Origin: Tetrapyrgos nigripes
Lineage: Eukaryota; Basidiomycota; Agaricomycetes; Agaricales; Campanellaceae
Reading direction: 5' to 3'
Length of the DNA stretch: 64,000 nucleotides
Assembly: GCA_013368315.1 (NCBI GenBank)
Contig: JAACJM010000112.1
Coordinates: 186,001 to 250,000 of the forward strand
Below, piece by piece: positions 171 through 11,746 of the stretch. The notes under the pieces were generated by a model. It ran no database searches. It was not told the DNA's origin and saw only the letters and a program-made list of their open reading frames with translations. The stretch's first letter is position 1, and each line of letters opens with the position of its first letter. A program made the position numbers and the translations under genes.

Positions 171-1237
171 ATGGCCGTCTCAAACTCGAATTCTAATCCT
201 CAATTTTGCCAACTCCTTCTCACTCTCTTCCTCTGCCTCACTGTCTCCCTTCAGTTCGCCGACATGGCCCAGGGCGCTCCAGTTCCAGTTCCAGGTCCAA
301 AAGAGAGCGAAGGAGGGGGAAACGGAGTAGATGTACTAGCTCGCGTCAATGTCAATGGTATGTCCAAAGCTTATCCTTCGTCCAATATCCTTCATATATA
401 GCTCAAGCTCACTGAATCTTAATTACAGGAGCCGATAACAGCTTCAGTGACACACGGCGATGGAACCCTGTTGATGTTGGCACCTTGCCGCCTGGTACTC
501 GTAGACAAACCGATATCCCAGGTGCCGAGCCTATAACAGGCGATCCCCCTGTTTCTGGTGGTGATTCTGCTCGACTGATTAATCGTATTAATGGTAAGTC
601 CAGATCTACACTCGCCATTTTCCACCTGAAGCTTTCGAAATCATTCGAGTCATTCATGATCATTCAACGTTATTGACCAAACTGTGACTGACTGCTATCT
701 GTAATATGGCAGGACAAGCTGCGTCCTGGAAACGGATTAATGGTAAGTCCCTCCTCCAGCCTTCTTTCCAATCATCTCGCGCTGTTTTGCACTTGGAAGC
801 CTTCCAAATGATTATCATTCGAGTCTTTCATTCAAAGCTATTGACCAAATTGTGACTAACTGCTATCTGTGAATGTAATATAACAGGACAAGCTGCGTCA
901 TGGAAACGTATTAACGGTAAGTCCCTCCTCCAACCTTCTTCCCAATCATCTCGCGTTACTTTGCACTTGGAAGCCTTCCAAATGATTATCATTCGAGTCA
1001 TTCATTCAAAGTTATCAACCAAACTGCGACTAACTGCTATCTGTAAATGTAATATGGCAGGACAAGCTGCGACCTGGAAACGTATTGATGATGGTAAGTC
1101 CCTCCTCCAACCTTCTTTCCAATCATCTCGCAGTGTTTTGCACTTGGAAGCCTTTCAAATGATTCGTTTTCTCGTTCATTCCGAGTCAAAGCTATTGAGC
1201 AAACCGTGACTGACTGCTACCTGTAGCCTTCCCCTGA
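171..1237 (+). CDS. Secreted kexin-processed repeat-peptide precursor (predicted)
   Basis: Six exons fit without a frame break: 171-357, 429-593, 713-742, 887-916, 1061-1093 and 1227-1237. They give 151 residues plus TGA. All introns are GT-AG and phase 1. Residues 1 to about 37 form a signal peptide (hydrophobic LLLTLFLCLTVSL). Residues 74-86 lie between two Arg-Arg pairs. Exons 3-5 each add one copy of GQAA(S/T)WKRI(N/D), so Lys-Arg at 124-125, 134-135 and 144-145 frames three eight-residue peptides, INGQAASW twice and INGQAATW once. The tail is IDDAFP. The layout matches kexin-processed repeat precursors of fungi (pheromone-like, repellent or dikaritin-type peptides), but I recognise no family. 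The core has Trp and no Tyr, unlike the Tyr-containing dikaritin cores. The product is presumably cut in the Golgi and secreted. Genes left of the window are unseen. Confidence 0.72.
594..1226 (+). repeat. Tandem repeat of intron plus 30-nt microexon (period about 174 bp)
   Basis: Each unit holds GTAAGTCC...TGACT(G/A)ACTGCTA(T/C)CTGTAA...CAG followed by GACAAGCTGCG(T/A)C. Acceptors at 712, 886 and 1060 are 174 bases apart. The introns are as alike as the exons, so the repeats look recent. Because every unit starts and ends in phase 1, copies can be gained, lost or skipped without shifting the frame. Confidence 0.85.
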
Positions 1238-1521: not shown

Positions 1522-1547
1522 CTAAAATGTACATGAAGAGCTTGTGG

Positions 1548-1565
1548 GCCACCGCTTCGCGTGGC
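1548..1565 (-). other. Helitron 3' subterminal hairpin
   Basis: GCCAC and GTGGC pair around a short loop (CGCTTCGC on the plus strand). On the minus strand the hairpin is preceded by GGGCCTCGTTATT. The same block, GGGCCTCGTAATTTGCCACGCGAAG, occurs in the short elements at 12724-12983 and, diverged, at 20502-20917 and 21794-22113. Such hairpins mark the rolling-circle stop signal just inside Helitron 3' ends. Confidence 0.65.
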
Positions 1566-1603
1566 AATAACGAGGCCCTGAAATCAACAAACATTATTAT
1601 TAC

Positions 1604-4600
1604 TTATACAAATAAGCCATATAGCAAAACTGCTGCTTTTTTATTGTCATAATATGTAACAGATTCAGTTCCATTTACCAATATGCTAGCTTTATGGGGT
1701 ACTCCATTTTTGATACCATCATATATATATTCTGCTTGATTACTGAATATACGGAGAATAAAGTGCTCTTCTCCAAAATAAATTATAGCTTTCAAATCAT
1801 ATGGTTTTTGGTTGCCATTGACAGTGAGGTTAATCATCCTGTCAATGTCCATTGAAGCATTTATTGGGACATACAGTAAAAAGAATTTAGGAAATCTAGT
1901 AAACTCAATGACAGTTTGAAGCTCTGTATGACAGATTTGGCATTGCCAACCAAATGGTTGAACAAAATTGTCTACCCATTGTTGTGTAGATTGATACATT
2001 CTGGTAGACATATAAAGTAGCATATTTGTTCTATTTTTCCATGGTTTATGAACATGATTATTAGTGCAGATAACTTGACTTCTGGAAAATGAAAGATCTG
2101 ACTGCGTTAATGCTAGAAGCACTTCACCGGCATCAGCATACTGTCCATAAGAAAATGCTTCTGAATCAATGTTATGAAGACCACGCCTCACATTTTCTCT
2201 TGCAGCTGTAAGATCTGTAATGCCAGAGCGAAAAGCATCCAGTAGATCCATGGACAGTATTTGTGTAAAATGAGACATTTCAATCTCAAAATGATTGACA
2301 TAAAGGTAATACAGAAGAATGATGGCAGAGTCATAAGCACAGCTATTGAGAAACCATCTTAGGGATGGATAGCTTAAATATGAAGCTGAATTTCTCTGAA
2401 TCTGAGCTGGAACATCTTCTTTGATTTTCTTTTTAGGAGTAGTACTTGGTCTTTCAGGTTCTTCAGCCTGAGCTTTTCTCTTGAGAGTCCTTCCTTTTGT
2501 CTCATTTTGTGTAGCACCTTTTGCAGTTTTAAAATTTCCTTTGAGCTGCCTTTTGTTTTTCTGGTCAGTTTCATTATCAGCAGAGATAATTTGCCATGTT
2601 TCTCCTGAATCAAATGTGTCTGGTAGAGGGTCACTATCATTCCATTCAATAGACTTGTGCACTGAGGCAGGGACAAAGTTTATGCCTTGCACAGTGCGGA
2701 ATGACTTGATCAAACTTGACCGATGGTCACCGAAGACAGAAGGTGACAATATCCCCAAGTATTTTAGTCTTGTTATCTCATCTAGAAGTTCTAATTCTCT
2801 GAGCTCCTGTCTATATCCACCTTTATTCTTTATGCCACCTGTCAATAAGTTTGTATTAAATCCTTGTAAAATAAGAGTTTGATCAGCGCAGGAGCTACGA
2901 GACAATGCTGTGTATATAGCTCTAAAGTCCCTGCTGTTATGTATGTCAACAACATTCCAATCCCTAGTCTTTCCTTGAGAGGCAAAGTCTGTCATTGCAA
3001 AATTGGGTAGTATTTCAACCTGTGTCCGAGATATAGCAATTTCAGAGTCATCTGATAGCTTGCATTCAATTCGGACTGTGTTGCGAGTTATAGGGACAAC
3101 ATTCTCTGGTAAGCCATCAAATTTGATTGGAGCTGGAGGATTGGGTGGCTTATGAAGCTTGATAAAGAGTACATCTAAGACTAACTTGCCATGTTTACCC
3201 GTCTTGGCTTTCCAACCATGAACATAGCCCTCTTGACCTTTTGTGATACAAAGTTCTGTGGCACTATTGTATCTAATCATAACGGGCATTCCTAGGCATA
3301 GATCTAATCTACCTGGAACTTGTCGATCATTATAAGAATGTGGTTGGCTCCAAAGTTCTTTCTGAATCTTACCGTTCACTCGAAATCGCTTAGATCTTCG
3401 TCTTTTTCTGTATTGTCTTTGATCTTCAGGAATCTCCTCAAGGATTACATGTTCATCTTCAGAATAAAAAGATGTGAGTTTCTGGCAAGTTTCTGCAGCA
3501 AATCGCTCAGTTCCAAGCCGATTAGCAACATCCTTGTGCTTATTATAAGTGAGAATGATAGGAGTATTCCGAAAATTCTCATTCTTCAATGATTTTTCTG
3601 GCTGACATGGGTTTGAAATCATTGTCCGCAAAAATGCAATATCCTCAGGCGTACATGACTTGTATCGCATATTTTCTAACGCATTTCTATACTTGTCATC
3701 TCTTTCTGATTGTTCAGTTTGTCTCATATTTTTTCTGAGCATCACAACTGTATTTACTTGATGCCAAAGATGCTGTCCTATGGAGTTTTCTTGATCCGAT
3801 TTTGATTTGGGTGATTGGCCAATAGAGTGACTATATAATGCTACACTTTCTCCGCCTATCGCTGGCGGGAGCTGACTAAAATCACCCGCAAAAATCATAC
3901 TCATACCACCAAAAGGAAGGTGAGGCATGCTTAAAGCAAGTGCGAGCTTTGCGCTGATCTTATACATATCTTTACAAGATAACATAGATACTTCGTCCAG
4001 AAAAACATAATTGACACCTTCTAAACGTGAACAGATTTGTGGTATGGATGTAGAATGGTTTTCTCCCTCAGACTTTGAGTTGATACCAAACATGTAGTGA
4101 TATGTTGATCCTGCCAACAGCGCAGCTGCGCTTCCAGTTGGGGCAACAACAAGCATGCGGTGTGACTCATTGCGTTCTGCAAAAAACTTTCTTAAAGCAC
4201 GGAGAACAGTTGATTTGCCAGTGCCACCCATCCCCCCAATGTACATTTTCAGTTGCTCAGGACATGGACTGGCTGCGTGATTTGCAATAATTCTAAAAGC
4301 TCTGTTCTGCTCAGGATTATCATGGAATTTATATTCATTAGCTATAGTATCAATGAGATTCTGAGTTTGACCTTGTCTTGTCTTGGTCTCAAAAGCTGTT
4401 TTGTCTAATATCTCAACTTGATTAGGAAACCTATTCTTGAATTTATTAGCAGTGTCCTGGTTTGCACTAGATTTATGTCTCTTGTCAAGTATATCCTGCC
4501 TCATTTTGTTAATTTGAAGCTTCCAGCTATGTGCACTTCGGGTGACCTCTGGTTGACATTCCTGTGGGATCAACGACTTACGGTCATGTAAATTATCTGT

Positions 4601-5062
4601 CCAGCCCATTCCTACCAAAATCCCTGTCATTTCATTCATGTCTTCTTGTCGGCGTCTCTCAAATGGCCCACATTCATCTGAAATCTCAAGTAACTCAGAA
4701 TCAATTCCATCATCATATTCTGGTTCATATTCAATGATATCTGCATCTACAGCATTATTACTCATTGTTTTTCTTTGAGCATTATAGTCATCTCTTGAAT
4801 CTAAACATTCATAACGAACTTGGAAATTTTTGAGTACTTGCTTCTGCTGCGCTGTGAACTGGAAATTAGTGAATGCATCATCCCAGCTTTGATCCTCATG
4901 CTTCAAGATTTTTCCATTCCTCCATGGTTTGAATAAAGTTAGCATGACAGTACAATAATATTCGCGATTACCCTTATCAGCTCTGGGTAGTGTTCCTCCA
5001 ATAAAGTTTGGAACAAGTCTTTTTGCATTAGATCCAACTTTCATTGCATGTGTATCAGCAAG
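1604..5062 (-). pseudogene. Helitron-1 Pif1-like helicase half with C-terminal cysteine-protease-like domain
   Basis: This is the C-terminal part of the Helitron Rep-helicase; the open frame begins at 5068 inside the inserted LTR, and true Helitron sequence starts at 5062. About residue 279 is Walker A GGMGGTGKS, about 356 Walker B FLDEVS, about 394 GDFSQLPP, and about 726 the late helicase motif ALSRSSCADQTLI. These are superfamily-1 Pif1/RecD motifs that unwind DNA during rolling-circle transposition. After a basic linker (KRKAQAEEPERPS region), residues about 900-1154 form an extra domain with FLNSCAYDSA (Cys about 910) and GEEHFILRI (His about 1101) followed by IYDG. This resembles the Cys and His boxes of ubiquitin-specific-type proteases. 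Helitrons are known to carry OTU-type proteases; the exact family here is inference. The half itself has no internal stop, but it is cut off from Rep. Confidence 0.85.
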
Positions 5063-5580
5063 TGTCATGAATCGTCTCCCGCCTATTCATTTTCCTTTCT
5101 ATTCTTTTCCCTTTACTACCTATTCCCCACTCTAACCCCATAAACATCAACTATTTCTCATCATCGTCTATAGTTACCATCTCTCTAGATCTATAACTCA
5201 TATTCCTATCTCCTCCGATTCCTATCTCCATGGACATTCTCACTGTCAATCACTTTGTGTGATCCAGTACCTTCATCTATCCATATTTGACTTGTTATTC
5301 TCTCGCCCTTGACATCTCCACATGATACCGTCTATTATTACTTACTCTTTCCCATCTGTTCATATTTTACTTATATACCTGTGATCCTTGTAACCTATTC
5401 CTTAGTTCGTTCACTTCGTCTCCGCTCCGTACTTCTACTACGCAGTGTAGAGCCTAGTCAGCTTACTTTCTCTCTATCTCTTTATCTCTCTATCTCTCTT
5501 GACCAATCTATTCTCTTGTGAACCGGCTTTCTCGTATTGTGTGACTTGGGTGGTTATCGAGTGTATCGACAACCTTGACA
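5063..5580 (+). repeat. 5' LTR of the truncated gypsy element (LTR family 5)
   Basis: It runs from TGTCATGAATCG to CAACCTTGACA. The 3' third, from TTCACTTCGTCTCCGCTCCGTACT to GTGTGACTTGGGTGGT, matches the solo LTR at 54685-55191 and, reversed, sequence from 61613. It contains TATTCC and pyrimidine-rich tracts but no obvious strong TATA box. Confidence 0.85.
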
Positions 5581-5643
5581 CTTGAACGAACTCCCATACA
5601 CCCACCTCCTTCTCCAGACCCTTCAGATCCGAACGACTCAGTC

Positions 5644-6684
5644 ATGGCTGACACGCCTCCTATCGGGTTAAACGGAACTTCCGAACGAGGAAGAAAACCG
5701 GATACCTTCAACGGAGAACGAAGCGAGGCAAAACGATGGTTGGCCCAGTTTAACAACTACCTGCGCATGAATCAAGGAAGGTACCCAACCGAAGAAAGTC
5801 AGGTTGCATTATTTCTGTCATTTTTCGCGGGAGAAAAAGGAGGAGACTGGGCAACGCAGAGATTGACGGAACGAGATGCAGATGAAGAAAATGAGGAATT
5901 GAAAGCTACACCAGATCAACGGAGATGGATAACTTTAAAGGAGATACGTGATCGATTCAAAAGGGACTTCAAACCTTTAGCCTCGGAAGATGTGGCTAGA
6001 ACAAAGATCAAGTTTGCCAGAATGAGGGGGACGGATATCAGCAGCTATAACAGCATTTTTGACACATATGGAGAGGAGTCTGACTTTGGAGAGGCAGCGC
6101 TGTTAGAATTCTATCAGGACGGGTTGCCACCCAAACTCCGAGAAGCAGTTGGAAGGACGTATCCAAAATGGAAGGACTTCGATGAGTATCAGGAAAGAGC
6201 TGTGGAGCTTCACTTAGAGTGGTTGAAGGAACGAGAAAGACAAGGACGCTGGAAGACTACTTCAACGTCAAAGAGTAGTTCAGGCCCGTCTCAAGGAAGA
6301 ACGGTGGCTAGCGTCAATGCGCTCATGGGATCAGGTGCTAACTCGTCTTTCAATCTGCCACCTAAACTGACACCTGATGAAAGGGACCGACTCCGAAAGG
6401 CAGGAGCATGCTTCGCATGTAGACAAACCGGACACATGAGCAACGAATGTCCTACATTCCCGAAAACGTCGTCTCAAAACACTTCCCGAACCTTCCCTCC
6501 TCGCACCATTCGAACAGCCGAAACCGCGTCCCCCCCACCGGCAACAGTGGCACAGGCATCCTCTTCTCGAAACACGATCAAGGAAATCTCTGACATAGTA
6601 AACAGGGTTAAAGGATTAGAAGGAGAAGAAAAGGAACAAGCAACCGTCTATTTGAAGGATATTATGTCTAAATTGGATTTTTAA
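5644..6684 (+). CDS. Gypsy Gag with one zinc knuckle
   Basis: The frame is open from the ATG at 5644 (MADTPPIGLNG), about 346 residues. The central part (GGDWATQRL, then LASEDVARTKIKFARMRG) is the usual retrotransposon Gag capsid region. A CCHC knuckle, CFACRQTGHMSNEC, lies about residue 257, followed by a Pro/Ser/Thr-rich stretch and a short coiled C-terminus (IVNRVKGLEGEEKEQ). Gag coats the element RNA in virus-like particles. The frame has no stops, which is unusual in this decayed neighbourhood and suggests a fairly recent insertion. Confidence 0.85.
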   Translation: MADTPPIGLNGTSERGRKPDTFNGERSEAKRWLAQFNNYLRMNQGRYPTEESQVALFLSFFAGEKGGDWATQRLTERDADEENEELKATPDQRRWITLKEIRDRFKRDFKPLASEDVARTKIKFARMRGTDISSYNSIFDTYGEESDFGEAALLEFYQDGLPPKLREAVGRTYPKWKDFDEYQERAVELHLEWLKERERQGRWKTTSTSKSSSGPSQGRTVASVNALMGSGANSSFNLPPKLTPDERDRLRKAGACFACRQTGHMSNECPTFPKTSSQNTSRTFPPRTIRTAETASPPPATVAQASSSRNTIKEISDIVNRVKGLEGEEKEQATVYLKDIMSKLDF

Positions 6685-6755
6685 ATCGCTCCTCTGTTAC
6701 GTCGTCAGTAGGAGTAAAACAGTACACCGGACAGTTAAAGAACAATCGATATAGT

Positions 6756-7450
6756 GTGTTATACCCCTCTTGTGAGCGATCCTTTCCTTCAGAAATAAGG
6801 ATGTCAGCAATCACTCGCAATAAACAGATACCATCAATCACACTCAAAACTGAACTAATCGGCAAAATTACTGGCAGAAAAATCGACGCAAACGCTCTAA
6901 TAGACAGCGGTGCAGAAGGCATAATCATTAACAGTCAATTCGCACAAAGAAATCAACTCACCCTCCTTCCTATCAAAAACCCATTCCCAGTTCGAAATGT
7001 TGACGGCTCTGAAAACACCATGGGATGGGTACGAGAATACACTATCCAAAATCTTCGTGTCTATTCTCGAGACGACAAGGCGTACCATGAAGAACAGGCC
7101 GAATTCTATGTAACGGACATCGGGGATCACGATATAATCCTCGGTACCGACTGGTTGGAAGAACATAATCCAGATATAGACTGGTCAGACTCACGGGTAG
7201 ACATGACTAGATGCCCGGAAACATGTATCACAGCAAAACCTCCCGTTCTCCACTTGAAAACTAAAACCTTAAAACCCATAGTCATCGATCCAAGAACCCA
7301 TCACAAGGAGTACCAAGTCAGGTGGATAGAACCAGTTGGACGATTCAAACCAACAGCCCAACCGAAAATTGCAGGGCGACGTCGTCGAATTCCTATTCGA
7401 TCTTTCCACCGAAATCCAGAAGAAACGGCAATCTTTACCGAAGATGACTA
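6756..7450 (+). pseudogene. Gypsy protease, cut off before reverse transcriptase
   Basis: This frame differs from gag and begins about 70 bases after the gag stop, so a frameshift or a separate start would be needed. LIDSGAEGIIINSQF carries the aspartic protease DSG triad, and HDIILGTDWLEEHNPDIDW is the usual downstream protease/RT linker motif. The reading ends at the 19-bp inverted LTR tip (7451-7469) and then in Helitron sequence, so reverse transcriptase, RNase H and integrase are missing. The element could move only with help from a related copy. Confidence 0.82.
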
Positions 7451-7469
7451 CGGGAGACGATTCATGACA

Positions 7470-10123
7470 GCAAGTGGATGTCCATGAAGAAAAGGAAACA
7501 TATTTTGTGATAAGGTTTCTTTATTCATTGGTTTGGGGCCTTGTAAATACTCAGCTTCACATGCATCATCATCTTCTTCATCCGATTCTAGACTTATATC
7601 AGAGTCTGTATCTGATACAGTGCTTTCAGCATCAGAATCATTTTCATTGACCACCTCCATATCCATCAACTCATCTGGACTTTGATGTGATACTTTGTTT
7701 TTTGATACATTTACCCTTTCACATAGCTGCACCCAATCATAAAGACACATATGCTCAAGCTCTAATGGACGATATATATAATCACAAACTTGTGAAAGGG
7801 CTACCACTCCATTTCTCTTCCTGAGTAAAATTACCTTATCTTTACCTGGTGGTTTGTCCTCGTCATCACTGCTCCAATATTTTTTAACTTCATTCACATA
7901 ACTCTTCCAATAAAAAGCTTTGAACTTATGGCTGGTATAGTGGTCTGGATTGTCTAATAAGTACATGCAGATCATAGGAGCTCCTAGCTCCATTTTTACA
8001 GATAAAAGATTTACCATCTGTGTGACCAATTTTCTCACCTTCTCTTGCCTGCTCAAAGGTCCATTTAACATTTCAGAATTTCGAACCAGAACAGATTTTA
8101 TAACATCAAAAATGATGTGTGTATTCAAACTCCATTTTGTGATGTAATTAGTCACATAATATACAACTGCCTTAATTGCAGTTCCAGATAGCAGTGAAGT
8201 GACATCTGAATTACACCGCAATAGATATGTCATTGTCGGATTATAAGTGTTAATCCAAGGTTCATGCTTCTGTATTTTCAAATATCCTGTTTCTTCATCA
8301 ACCTGTGTAGTGTCTATGACTTCGCGTGGAAATCTTGCACTACAAGTTCCGTACTTATTATCCAGGCAGCCAAAATAGTCTCTATTTTTCTTACGTTTGC
8401 CATCTTTACCCATAGTTGACTTACATTTGTGTATATGAGTGCGAGTGACTATATCATCTACCTCAGCTTTATACTTATCCCACCATTGTTCAGTAGATAC
8501 ACATACATCACACTGCTCTTTATTATTACATTTATGCGCTGTGCAATTTGGAGGGGCTGATGGAAGAGAGTAAACAGGGTTAACATAATCTTCTGATTCA
8601 GTTCTCAACTTGACTGTTTCCTGTACACTCTCCTGATCTCCTGTCATGAAATTACCAGTATGTACACTTTCAAGATATTCAACAATTTTCTTTTGAAAGT
8701 CACTGTTAGGGTCTAAGATTGCATCTCTGATTTCTTGTGGAGACCTTGAAAAAGCAATCCAGAGAAGCATATGTAAATGAAGTGTCAGCCTGCCTTGCTG
8801 TTCAACAGTCCCATAATAGGCACTTGTTTTGCCAAATAGCCCATCATGACCACTGTCTACTCCAAGAATATGCTTTATAAACATTCTTACCATGAAATCA
8901 AAAAATTTAGCACCGGAGACAGGATTTCTTATTACTTGTCTGGTTCTATCATCATCTGGTAATTTGAGATTTGGCTGGAATTTTTCATGAGTACCAGCAT
9001 AATATAAACACAGTGGATGGGTTGTGTCTGAAGGAGCAAAGGTAATATACCATGATGGTGCACCTAAGTAAGCAATTAGAGACCACAGCTCATTTCTGAG
9101 ATATTTTTTACTAGCCATAGAACCTTTCACACCACCACCTACGTGATCTAGATCTTGAATTATAGAGAAGCAAGCTTTTTCTTCTTCAGTTTCAGGACGT
9201 ACCACATCTCCTCTTTCAAGCCTTTGAATGATATTTGTGAGTACAGTATGGTTGATATTAAGTATCCGGTCAGCAATGGCTGGAAATGATTGAAGCTCAG
9301 TCATTGCAAAGCCATTAGAAGTTGCTGCTTTAATTTGCTCATGGCTGAATGCAACAAATGGAAAGGTGATGTCAGTCTGAAATCGTTTATCATGATAATT
9401 GAGTAAAAACTTTTTGTGAGCCTTTTCTCCGAACTTCAGGATATTGTTCATTCCAAAACCTCCTAATCCATAAGGGAAAAGCCATGGAAAAATTGATGGA
9501 TAAAGTTTAGGATTCTTGAATATTGTTGAGCTCTCCTTGCTGTGGCCTACAGCCAAGAATTTGCCTTGTGCATTCAAATGAGCTAAGGCTTTTGCCTTTT
9601 GTGATTCTACTGTCTCATTTTGAAGGTTTTCACCTGTCAGTCCATGTACAACAAAAGGAACTTCACCCTGTTCAGTCCCAATCTCAGGCTCATTGTCATG
9701 TACACTTGTTCCTTCTGGGATTCGGTTTCCTTCATTGTCTGTAGGCTTCCATTCCACTGATACTGGAGGTATATTTTCAGCGTACATATTAAGATTTTCC
9801 ATAGAGATATTTAGATCATGATACGCGGGATGGTTTAACTTTAACCATGTTAATGCATTGTAAACATATCTACGACGTACCAGCATTGGAGTCCTCTGGT
9901 AATCCTTTTCAGTTGGTTTACAAGGCCCTGTAAACATGATTGCAAGAACTTCATCTAATTCATCAGGCGGGGGTGGTAGGATATCATACACTTTGGTCAC
10001 TGGTGAATCAAAAGCTATGACGTGAGATATCATTTTGCGTGTTCCAGAAGACACTCTTACAAAACAGCAATTAGTCCTAATTTTTTGAATCAGAAGCCGC
10101 TCCACAAAATTCAAATCTTTCAA
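7470..10123 (-). pseudogene. Helitron-1 Rep (HUH endonuclease) half
   Basis: About 880 residues of the Helitron-like N-terminal family. TLHLHMLLWIAF (near 8757-8792) is the HUH metal-binding motif. YYVTNYITK (near 8130-8160) carries the two catalytic tyrosines that nick and join DNA strands. A Cys/His-rich segment with CTAHKCNNKEQCDVC (about 8500-8550) precedes them. The C-terminus runs GHPLA into the inserted LTR. Upstream, the same frame continues through TGA at 10154-10156. With 1604-5062 this was one polypeptide of roughly 2000 residues or more. Confidence 0.85.
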
Positions 10124-11746
10124 CTCAGAAGGAACATCACCAAGCCAGAGTCCTCAAGCCAGTGAGATACGTGGTACTTTGCCATTCAATAAAGCACATC
10201 GACACTCAGAGCATACTTTATCACAATTCTTATCGATTACTGGGCTACTGATGTCAGTAATTTTTTCACTTGAAGATTTTCTTTCAGATCAGGTCACTCC
10301 AGATGTGCACAGTACTTGTAGAAAACCAGACACTGATTTCAATGGATTCAAATCTGATCGAGGTTTCAGTTGACCACAGACAGCACAACCAGCCTCTTCT
10401 ATATTATTAGAATGGAAATCTTCAGTCCAACTTTCAATGATTTTTTTAATGAATTCTGGCTGGTTTGGCTTGGGAGGAAAAAAGTCTGTTTTGACTTGTA
10501 CAGTGCTCAAGGGCTCAAAGACAGATATATATTGCTTACAATCATTAGCACATTTATGAAGACTGCATAGAGCAGCAATTTCATTGAGTTTGAGGTTCCA
10601 ACCAATTTTGATTTTGTGTTGCCTGGCAAGTTTCTGCAAAGTTTTGCGGTTCAACATGGGAACAAGCTTAGAAAGAGGTATGTCAGTATATAAAAGGTTA
10701 GGCACCACGTTTTGAACATTATGCTCTTCACAATCTTGAACTTCCTTGAACCGGAACATCACTGATTCTGGATTTACAATTGAAGTTTCTGCCACTAGAT
10801 AGTCCTTCAGCTGGTAATAATTGAAAGTCGTTTTTGCTACACATGCGCCACCCTTCAAAGCAAATCCAGAGCATTTTGGGTGTGTCAGCAGATGTGATGT
10901 TACTTGATGACTCAGGAGAAACAGCAGGATAAGACGTTGAGAACGATCATGTATTGTTACAAAGAACCGATAGATTTTATCAGTCATATTCATCGTAAGA
11001 GCATGAGTGGTCCATTTTGCGACTCCGTCAAGATTGTTGTTGAACATAATCATTTTAGGGGGAGGATGCAGCATAGACAAGGAAGAGCTGCAGAGAGCAT
11101 GCAGGAAATTGCGGCGGTGATAAAAGGCTACGGACATTAGTGCCCGATAGTCATGACAATACATGAAACTACGAAAAAGCGAAAGTCGGATGTGTAGTAC
11201 CTCCGAATATACATCGAGAAGACACATTGCTAGAGAAACATTGCAGGAGCACGTTACACTGTACAAGGTATACTGCTCAGTGATAGCATGCCAAACATAT
11301 TTGCTTGCTTCATTTGGTATTCTGGTTGTAGCTGACATTGCAAAAGAAAGTAGCGAGAACGAGTGGATTGGTCTTGTAGGCTGCACCATGTGGATCAGAG
11401 TAATAGACTGCTTGATGCATTGTGATGAAGTGATTTTTTCAAACATATAGATCATATTTCGACAAATCGCATATAGTTCCCACTCGAGATCACAAAGAGA
11501 ACTTTGTACAAAATAAATTAATTTCCATAGGATAGTAAATTTCCATGAGCAAATCAATTTCCACGGACAAATCAATTTCCAGTGGCATAGTCCGTGTTCG
11601 GGCGAGCAGGAAGACAATGTAGGAACTGGATTGCAAGGGGAGAAACGTTCACAGGAGTCACTGAGGGTATCCAGGATTGTAACCGAAGACGATGAGAACG
11701 GTATACCGTTACTAGGGATGAGATTGTAATGAGCTGGCGAAAGCAA
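10124..11746 (-). pseudogene. Helitron-1 Rep N-terminal region with two in-frame TGA stops
   Basis: The frame is continuous with 7470-10123 except for TGA at 10154-10156 and 10289-10291. Recognisable N-terminal Helitron features are LQKLARQHKIKIG (about 10600), the Cys-bearing LCSLHKCANDCKQYISVFEPL, CAVCGQL near 10385, and CSECRCALLNGKVPR near 10190-10225. Beyond about 10800 the protein is unlike Rep, so the start at 11746 is only the furthest ATG, not a supported one. The Trp-Lys repeats at residues about 55-75 come from a short DNA repeat. Confidence 0.7.
11515..11585. repeat. Short tandem repeat (CAATTTCC units)
   Basis: Four spaced copies of (A/C)ATTTCC(A/G) as AATTTCCATAGG, AAATTTCCATGAG, CAATTTCCACGG and CAATTTCCAGTGG, about 22-27 bases apart, lie in the 5' part of Helitron-1. 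No gene function is evident. Confidence 0.5.

Follow-up and report, generated by a model that had tools for sequence, protein, structure and literature searches.

The gene at positions 171-1237 of the window (the whole analyzed stretch of 64,000 nucleotides, which starts at base 186001 of the 280,061-bp contig C109 of Tetrapyrgos nigripes) is predicted to encode a KEX2-processed repeat protein (KEP) that would release linear peptides ending in tryptophan. We assign this reading a probability of about 0.8, and the gene is most likely a working one. KEPs with tryptophan-ended peptides are already known from mushrooms; the new element is the architecture with one exon per repeat. DNA and protein searches of the 98.46-Mb genome (587 contigs) matched the gene itself only, so that no paralogue was found.

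Gene model and predicted precursor

By predicted splicing, six exons on the forward strand (Table 1) are joined to one open frame of 151 amino acids, which ends at the stop codon TGA (1235-1237). This agrees with the first-pass annotation, in which the same 151-residue protein, with a signal peptide, had been assembled by hand. All five introns are of the GT-AG type and in phase 1. The donor is GTATGT in intron 1 and GTAAGT in introns 2-5. Branch-point-like sequences (CTAAC or CTGAC) were found in introns 2-5, beginning 17-31 nt upstream of the intron end, and none was found in intron 1 by this pattern. The TATA-box-like sequence upstream is followed by a pyrimidine-rich leader. For the last intron, the acceptor ending at 1226 was preferred because of a branch-like motif; alternative AGs are also possible and would lead to different C-termini. 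When a single intron is retained, only intron 4 can be read through (199 aa), and each of the other four brings in a stop of its own.

Table 1. Predicted features of the KEP gene and its surroundings (positions of the window).
Feature	Position	Strand	Remark
TATA-box-like TATAAAA	65..71	+	about 105 bp 5′ of start codon; sequence; putative function
Exon 1: start codon, signal-peptide-like hydrophobic segment, Pro-rich pro-region	171..357	+	hydropathy
Intron 1, 71 nt, phase 1	358..428	+	not in repeat
Exon 2: pro-region, two RR sites	429..593	+	
Intron 2, 119 nt, repeat-type	594..712	+	alignment
174-bp tandem intron-microexon array, 3.3 copies	660..1225	+	Tandem Repeats Finder
Microexon 3, 30 nt: rest of INGQAASW, then KR and IN	713..742	+	
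Intron 3, 144 nt	743..886	+	
Microexon 4, 30 nt: rest of second INGQAASW-KR	887..916	+	
Intron 4, 144 nt	917..1060	+	
Microexon 5, 33 nt: rest of INGQAATW-KR, then IDD	1061..1093	+	
Intron 5, 133 nt	1094..1226	+	
Exon 6: final residues (..AFP) and TGA	1227..1237	+	putative acceptor choice
Helitron-type element: PIF1 helicase and Helitron_like_N frames, retrotransposon-like stretch between	1533..10153	-	right edge approximate

The N-terminus of the precursor fits a signal peptide, as judged by inspection and by hydropathy values of 2.05-2.4 for windows covering residues 13-29, with a cleavage-like site (AQG-AP) further on. The three predicted cores follow in the order INGQAASW-KR, INGQAASW-KR, and INGQAATW-KR, and the protein continues with IDDAFP. 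Thus, the Lys-Arg after each of the three cores, as read from the letters before, could be confirmed. Dibasic sites are present as RR at residues 72-73 and 87-88 and as KR at residues 124-125, 134-135, and 144-145. The first core is preceded by Asn-Arg, without a dibasic site immediately before it, so that only two of the three, the second and the third, have a dibasic site both before and after them. Between the two Arg-Arg sites lies a stretch of 13 residues, WNPVDVGTLPPGT (residues 74-86, window 461-499), which could be a further released peptide.

With the predicted secretion signal and the cores spaced by KR, two features by which KEPs are recognized are found in the precursor. The third, a kexin in the organism, is represented by a kexin-type gene on contig C3, where an S8 subtilase and a P-domain are encoded in adjacent frames.

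The intron-microexon array

The array was detected by Tandem Repeats Finder with 84% matches and a score of 780, by which the 174-bp unit noticed previously was recovered. Each repeat unit consists of an intron and one exon of 30 or 33 nt. According to the alignment, introns 2-5 are related to each other, and intron 1 lies outside of the repeat. Each microexon encodes (G)QAA[S/T]WKRI[N/D].., and the preceding exon supplies the Ile and Asn codons plus the first base of Gly. Because the exon boundary falls after this first base, each eight-residue core is assembled across a junction. The statement of the first-pass annotation that each copy comes from its own 30-33 nt exon is therefore right for the exon sizes, but the core itself is not confined to one exon. 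The 3′ end of exon 2 (RLINRIN-G) resembles the end of the microexons (KRIN-G). As expected from units running from phase 1 to phase 1, all eight combinations in which the three microexons are each retained or skipped remain in frame, share the stop codon and contain one core per retained microexon; by sequence, frame-safe skipping is thus possible.

Three of 30 sites differ between microexons 3 and 4, and all three changes are synonymous. The chance of three silent changes out of three is about 0.016 under a neutral silent fraction of 25%, which provides modest evidence that the microexons are coding. Microexon 5 shows two residue changes, a conservative S to T in the core and N to D just past KR. 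These observations have to be weighed against a decayed gene or a minisatellite within a single long intron, with unused microexons and exon 2 joined to exon 6 (120 aa). Indeed, 594-1226 is removable as a single intron in frame. Moreover, the pairwise divergence of the microexons (3/30, 3/30, and 4/30) is about equal to that of the introns (9.7%, 16.9%, and 20%), i.e., the microexons are overall not less diverged than the introns, and splice sites and frame would be copied by any tandem repeat. Against unused microexons stand the silent changes, the fact that all four repeat introns have kept the donor GTAAGT and an acceptor CAG or TAG, and the indels, which are found in the repeat introns, whereas the microexons carry only one, of 3 nt. 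In addition, the product of joining exon 2 directly to exon 6 would be a KEP without any core. Taken together, the minisatellite or decayed gene is very unlikely.

Further arrays of this type were searched for in the genome. The core pattern with up to two mismatches gave 36 matches, three of them the exact array copies, and the reversed control gave nine; the 33 extra matches outnumber the control partly because one dispersed sequence recurs. Among 27 of these 33, checked over 1.5 kb on each side, no W-KR microexon-like array was found, and one of them (L016) shows a single microexon-like spot. A near-match beside a UstYa gene on contig C178, outside these 27, was rejected as an array, its surrounding sequence being free of repeats. 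A spaced W-KR pattern with gaps of 135-165 nt gave four matches vs. 61 in the control, in a scan that has no positive control because the gap of the window gene itself (166) is outside this range. None of the four was retained: the match on C31 belongs to a dikaritin-like precursor encoded on the opposite strand, the two on C352 fall in a minisatellite with stops, and the one on C24 is no KEP. The C352 minisatellite (C352:48241-48680) consists of 4.7 copies of 144 bp with TGGTCAACCTT sub-repeats, its frames being broken by stops. Published tryptophan cores gave three weak matches in the T. nigripes genome, none of them KEP-like, in a search which is blind to microexon genes, since the window gene itself was not returned.

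Relation to mushroom KEPs, alternatives and genomic context

Linear KEP peptides have been detected by mass spectrometry in several mushrooms. Published findings include SGTGEASAADW from shiitake, MSGVAADW, LSGVAADW, and SGVAADW from oyster mushrooms and GPPAPSW from the medium of Coprinopsis cinerea, as well as QYKAPSW from C. cinerea KEP 490115 expressed in Pichia, and the identical -AADW ends among these peptides have been remarked on (PMC9769878). As in these tryptophan-ended KEPs (-AADW, -APSW), Trp stands immediately before a dibasic site in the window precursor. INGQAASW and MSGVAADW are identical at four of eight positions (G3, A5, A6, and W8), which is reached by 3.1% of the permutations; for the best of seven published cores the fraction is 0.16, so that the likeness is not significant beyond chance given the composition. 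The core had been noted as not recognized. This can be specified insofar as its end AASW-KR resembles the AADW cores of published KEPs (PMC9769878), within what composition alone would produce.

A query built from published tryptophan cores led to three proteins, namely P0001 and P0003 from Lentinula and P0002 from a JGI contig. The Lentinula proteins have a signal-peptide-like start (by eye) and SGTNEGSAADW-KR repeats. Together with KEP 2599 of L. edodes (PMC9769878), the three proteins share with the window precursor a signal-peptide-like start ending near QAAP, a short pro-region, tandem cores ending Ala-Ala-x-Trp right before Lys-Arg, and repeats which, where inspected, lack Ste13 dipeptides. 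These proteins differ in their longer core and in a pro-region that cannot be aligned with the window precursor. In the BLASTP comparison with P0001 only AAxWKR was aligned (16.5 bits, E 0.14). KEPs with the layout looked for in relatives by the first-pass annotation thus exist in Lentinula, but the one compared, P0001, does not establish homology to the window precursor. The gene is therefore said to work like a tryptophan-ended KEP and is classified as a KEP by layout; common descent with the AADW group cannot be concluded from the alignment. The L. edodes model P0001 exits the repeat after a Gly (SGTNEG-TQYVV) that is equivalent to the intron-split Gly of the window gene. It could be that this model runs into an intron there, and the intron position may or may not be shared.

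Among the published KEPs, those of Pleurotus (1091723 and 1439342, MSGVAADW) also have an eight-residue core, with peptides seen in fruiting bodies, but they carry Ste13 XA/XP motifs, which the window precursor does not (PMC9769878). The peptides of C. cinerea KEPs 490115 and 447393 (QYKAPSW and GPPAPSW) end in Ser-Trp like INGQAASW; KEP 490115 has RR and Ste13 motifs, and the peptides of KEP 447393 derive from a non-repetitive C-terminus (PMC9769878). No homologue of the full precursor was found at E<=1 among about 5.8 billion proteins, of which only 16 candidates had words in common with it, and no Pfam family matched the precursor.

Two other kinds of Kex2-released peptides were weighed against the linear KEP peptides. 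Precursors of dikaritins and epichloecyclins, i.e., RiPPs whose released cores are subsequently crosslinked by UstYa-type oxidases, have the same layout as the window precursor. UstYa (PF11807) is matched 33 times in the genome, on 13 contigs in all, and C31 carries a dikaritin-like precursor, its repeats being of the PHVYALSEDE type, about 6 kb from UstYa genes. None of the 33 UstYa matches is located on the 280-kb contig of the window gene, and neither INGQAASW nor INGQAATW contains a Tyr. A dikaritin crosslink requires Tyr in the core. Because of the missing Tyr and the missing UstYa matches on the contig, the RiPP alternative of the first-pass annotation, taken as a RiPP of the dikaritin type, is quite improbable. 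The modifying enzymes which might have been expected to the left of the window did not appear either in the 17 left-flank frames that were scanned out of 63 (at least 110 aa, over 50 kb), which include no recognizable RiPP set; such enzymes might also act in trans or belong to unknown families. In one survey, a UstYa-type gene is near only 6.1% of basidiomycete KEPs (PMC7329392), and its absence is therefore usual in these KEPs and has little bearing on the KEP status.

An alpha-pheromone-like signal with a Ste2-type receptor would likewise involve Kex2-released peptides, and tryptophan ends recall the layout of the alpha type. At four places, two on C45 and one each on C67 and C158, STE2 (PF02116) is matched in part, and one of these matches is above the cut-off (29.8 bits; its frame 27.4 vs. 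a cut-off of 27.2). Nevertheless, these matches span only about 60-80 of 280 positions, the one spliced STE2 candidate gene remains below the cut-off (20.9 bits), two STE2-like pieces matched no receptor among solved structures, and the profile gave no strong match in the genome. The lack of a strong match suggests an organism outside the ascomycetes, which have Ste2. The Ste13 XA/XP dipeptide of alpha-pheromones is not found after the Kex2 site, where IN or ID follows KR instead. A pheromone of the alpha type is therefore highly improbable; the partial STE2-like loci on C45, C67, and C158 are possible peptide receptors.

The C31 precursor (around 557298, minus strand) has a signal-peptide-like start, and its uninterrupted frame of 478 aa contains some two dozen repeats of the [A/N]PHVYALSEDEAVSKR type and one GYDFSEDDEFVGKR. 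It shares the signal-peptide-like start and the KR-spaced repeats with the window gene, whereas its repeats include Tyr and are encoded in a single unbroken frame close to UstYa genes, the window gene being otherwise on all three counts. With this precursor near UstYa genes, the fungus seems to possess the RiPP kind too.

Multi-copy Helitron sequence begins at about 1533, 296 bp beyond the stop codon of the KEP gene. Setting aside the gene's own place, none of the 44 matches begins left of 1525; among the matches listed, six other Helitron copies reach across this entire part of the query at 99-100% identity, and one does so at 95%. A location of the gene inside the Helitron was rejected, since the multi-copy sequence starts only there. 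Between the Helitron parts, gag- and protease-like frames (named by eye) are found on the forward strand at about 5545-7487. In the 3 kb left of the gene, all sequence is unique but for two stretches, one a dispersed repeat and the other matched at 78% over about 210 bp. Among the left-flank frames, a GST, a protease of retroviral type and carboxylesterase pieces were recognized. A further piece, about 7 kb from the KEP gene on that side (C109:178428-178883), resembles terpene synthases of the TRI5 family. In an inverted duplication (L034:57-1375 and 5884-7437), the same frames recur about 5 kb away on the other strand.

Proposed processing and significance

The architecture, the Kex2-type protease gene and the published peptides of mushroom KEPs (PMC9769878) all speak for the proposal of a secreted precursor from which kexin releases peptides. 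In the KEP pathway, the precursor would enter the secretory pathway, a Golgi kexin would cleave after KR and RR, and the carboxypeptidase Kex1 would trim the basic residues. Copies 2 and 3 would then be secreted as the linear peptides INGQAASW and INGQAATW, respectively. Copy 1 would have to be freed by cleavage behind the single Arg of INR and would otherwise remain on a 35-residue N-terminally extended form; cleavage at single Arg has also been suggested for mushroom KEPs (PMC9769878). The peptides would most likely serve in signalling or in biotic interactions, roles that have been proposed for other KEPs of mushrooms. Six C. cinerea kep gene knockouts showed no phenotype (PMC9769878).

The array probably expanded by unequal exchange of the 174-bp intron-plus-exon unit, and with growth in such units the number of peptides could vary while the frame is kept. 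As the units run from phase 1 to phase 1 and the cores are completed across junctions, skipping could also set the peptide number. That the array is a splicing-tunable dispenser, in which regulated skipping sets zero to three tryptophan peptides per precursor, and that this device is common to other mushroom AA-x-Trp KEPs, is an unlikely extension of the KEP reading.

In a limited literature search on KEX2, RiPP, and pheromone gene structure, no report of one core per exon in fungal KEPs was found; within the main texts of three KEP papers, the word "exon" had no match and "intron" one. The C. cinerea KEP screen began from predicted proteins (PMC9769878). Exons of 30 nt could be easily missed or mangled by gene finders, and KEP genes of this kind may therefore be undercounted. 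The window gene would be a clean case of peptide number altered by exon duplication. In a 2024 paper, functional microexons were said to be previously undescribed in filamentous fungi (PMC11121469), and with the window gene it could be tested if a secreted peptide can be under the control of microexons in a fungus.
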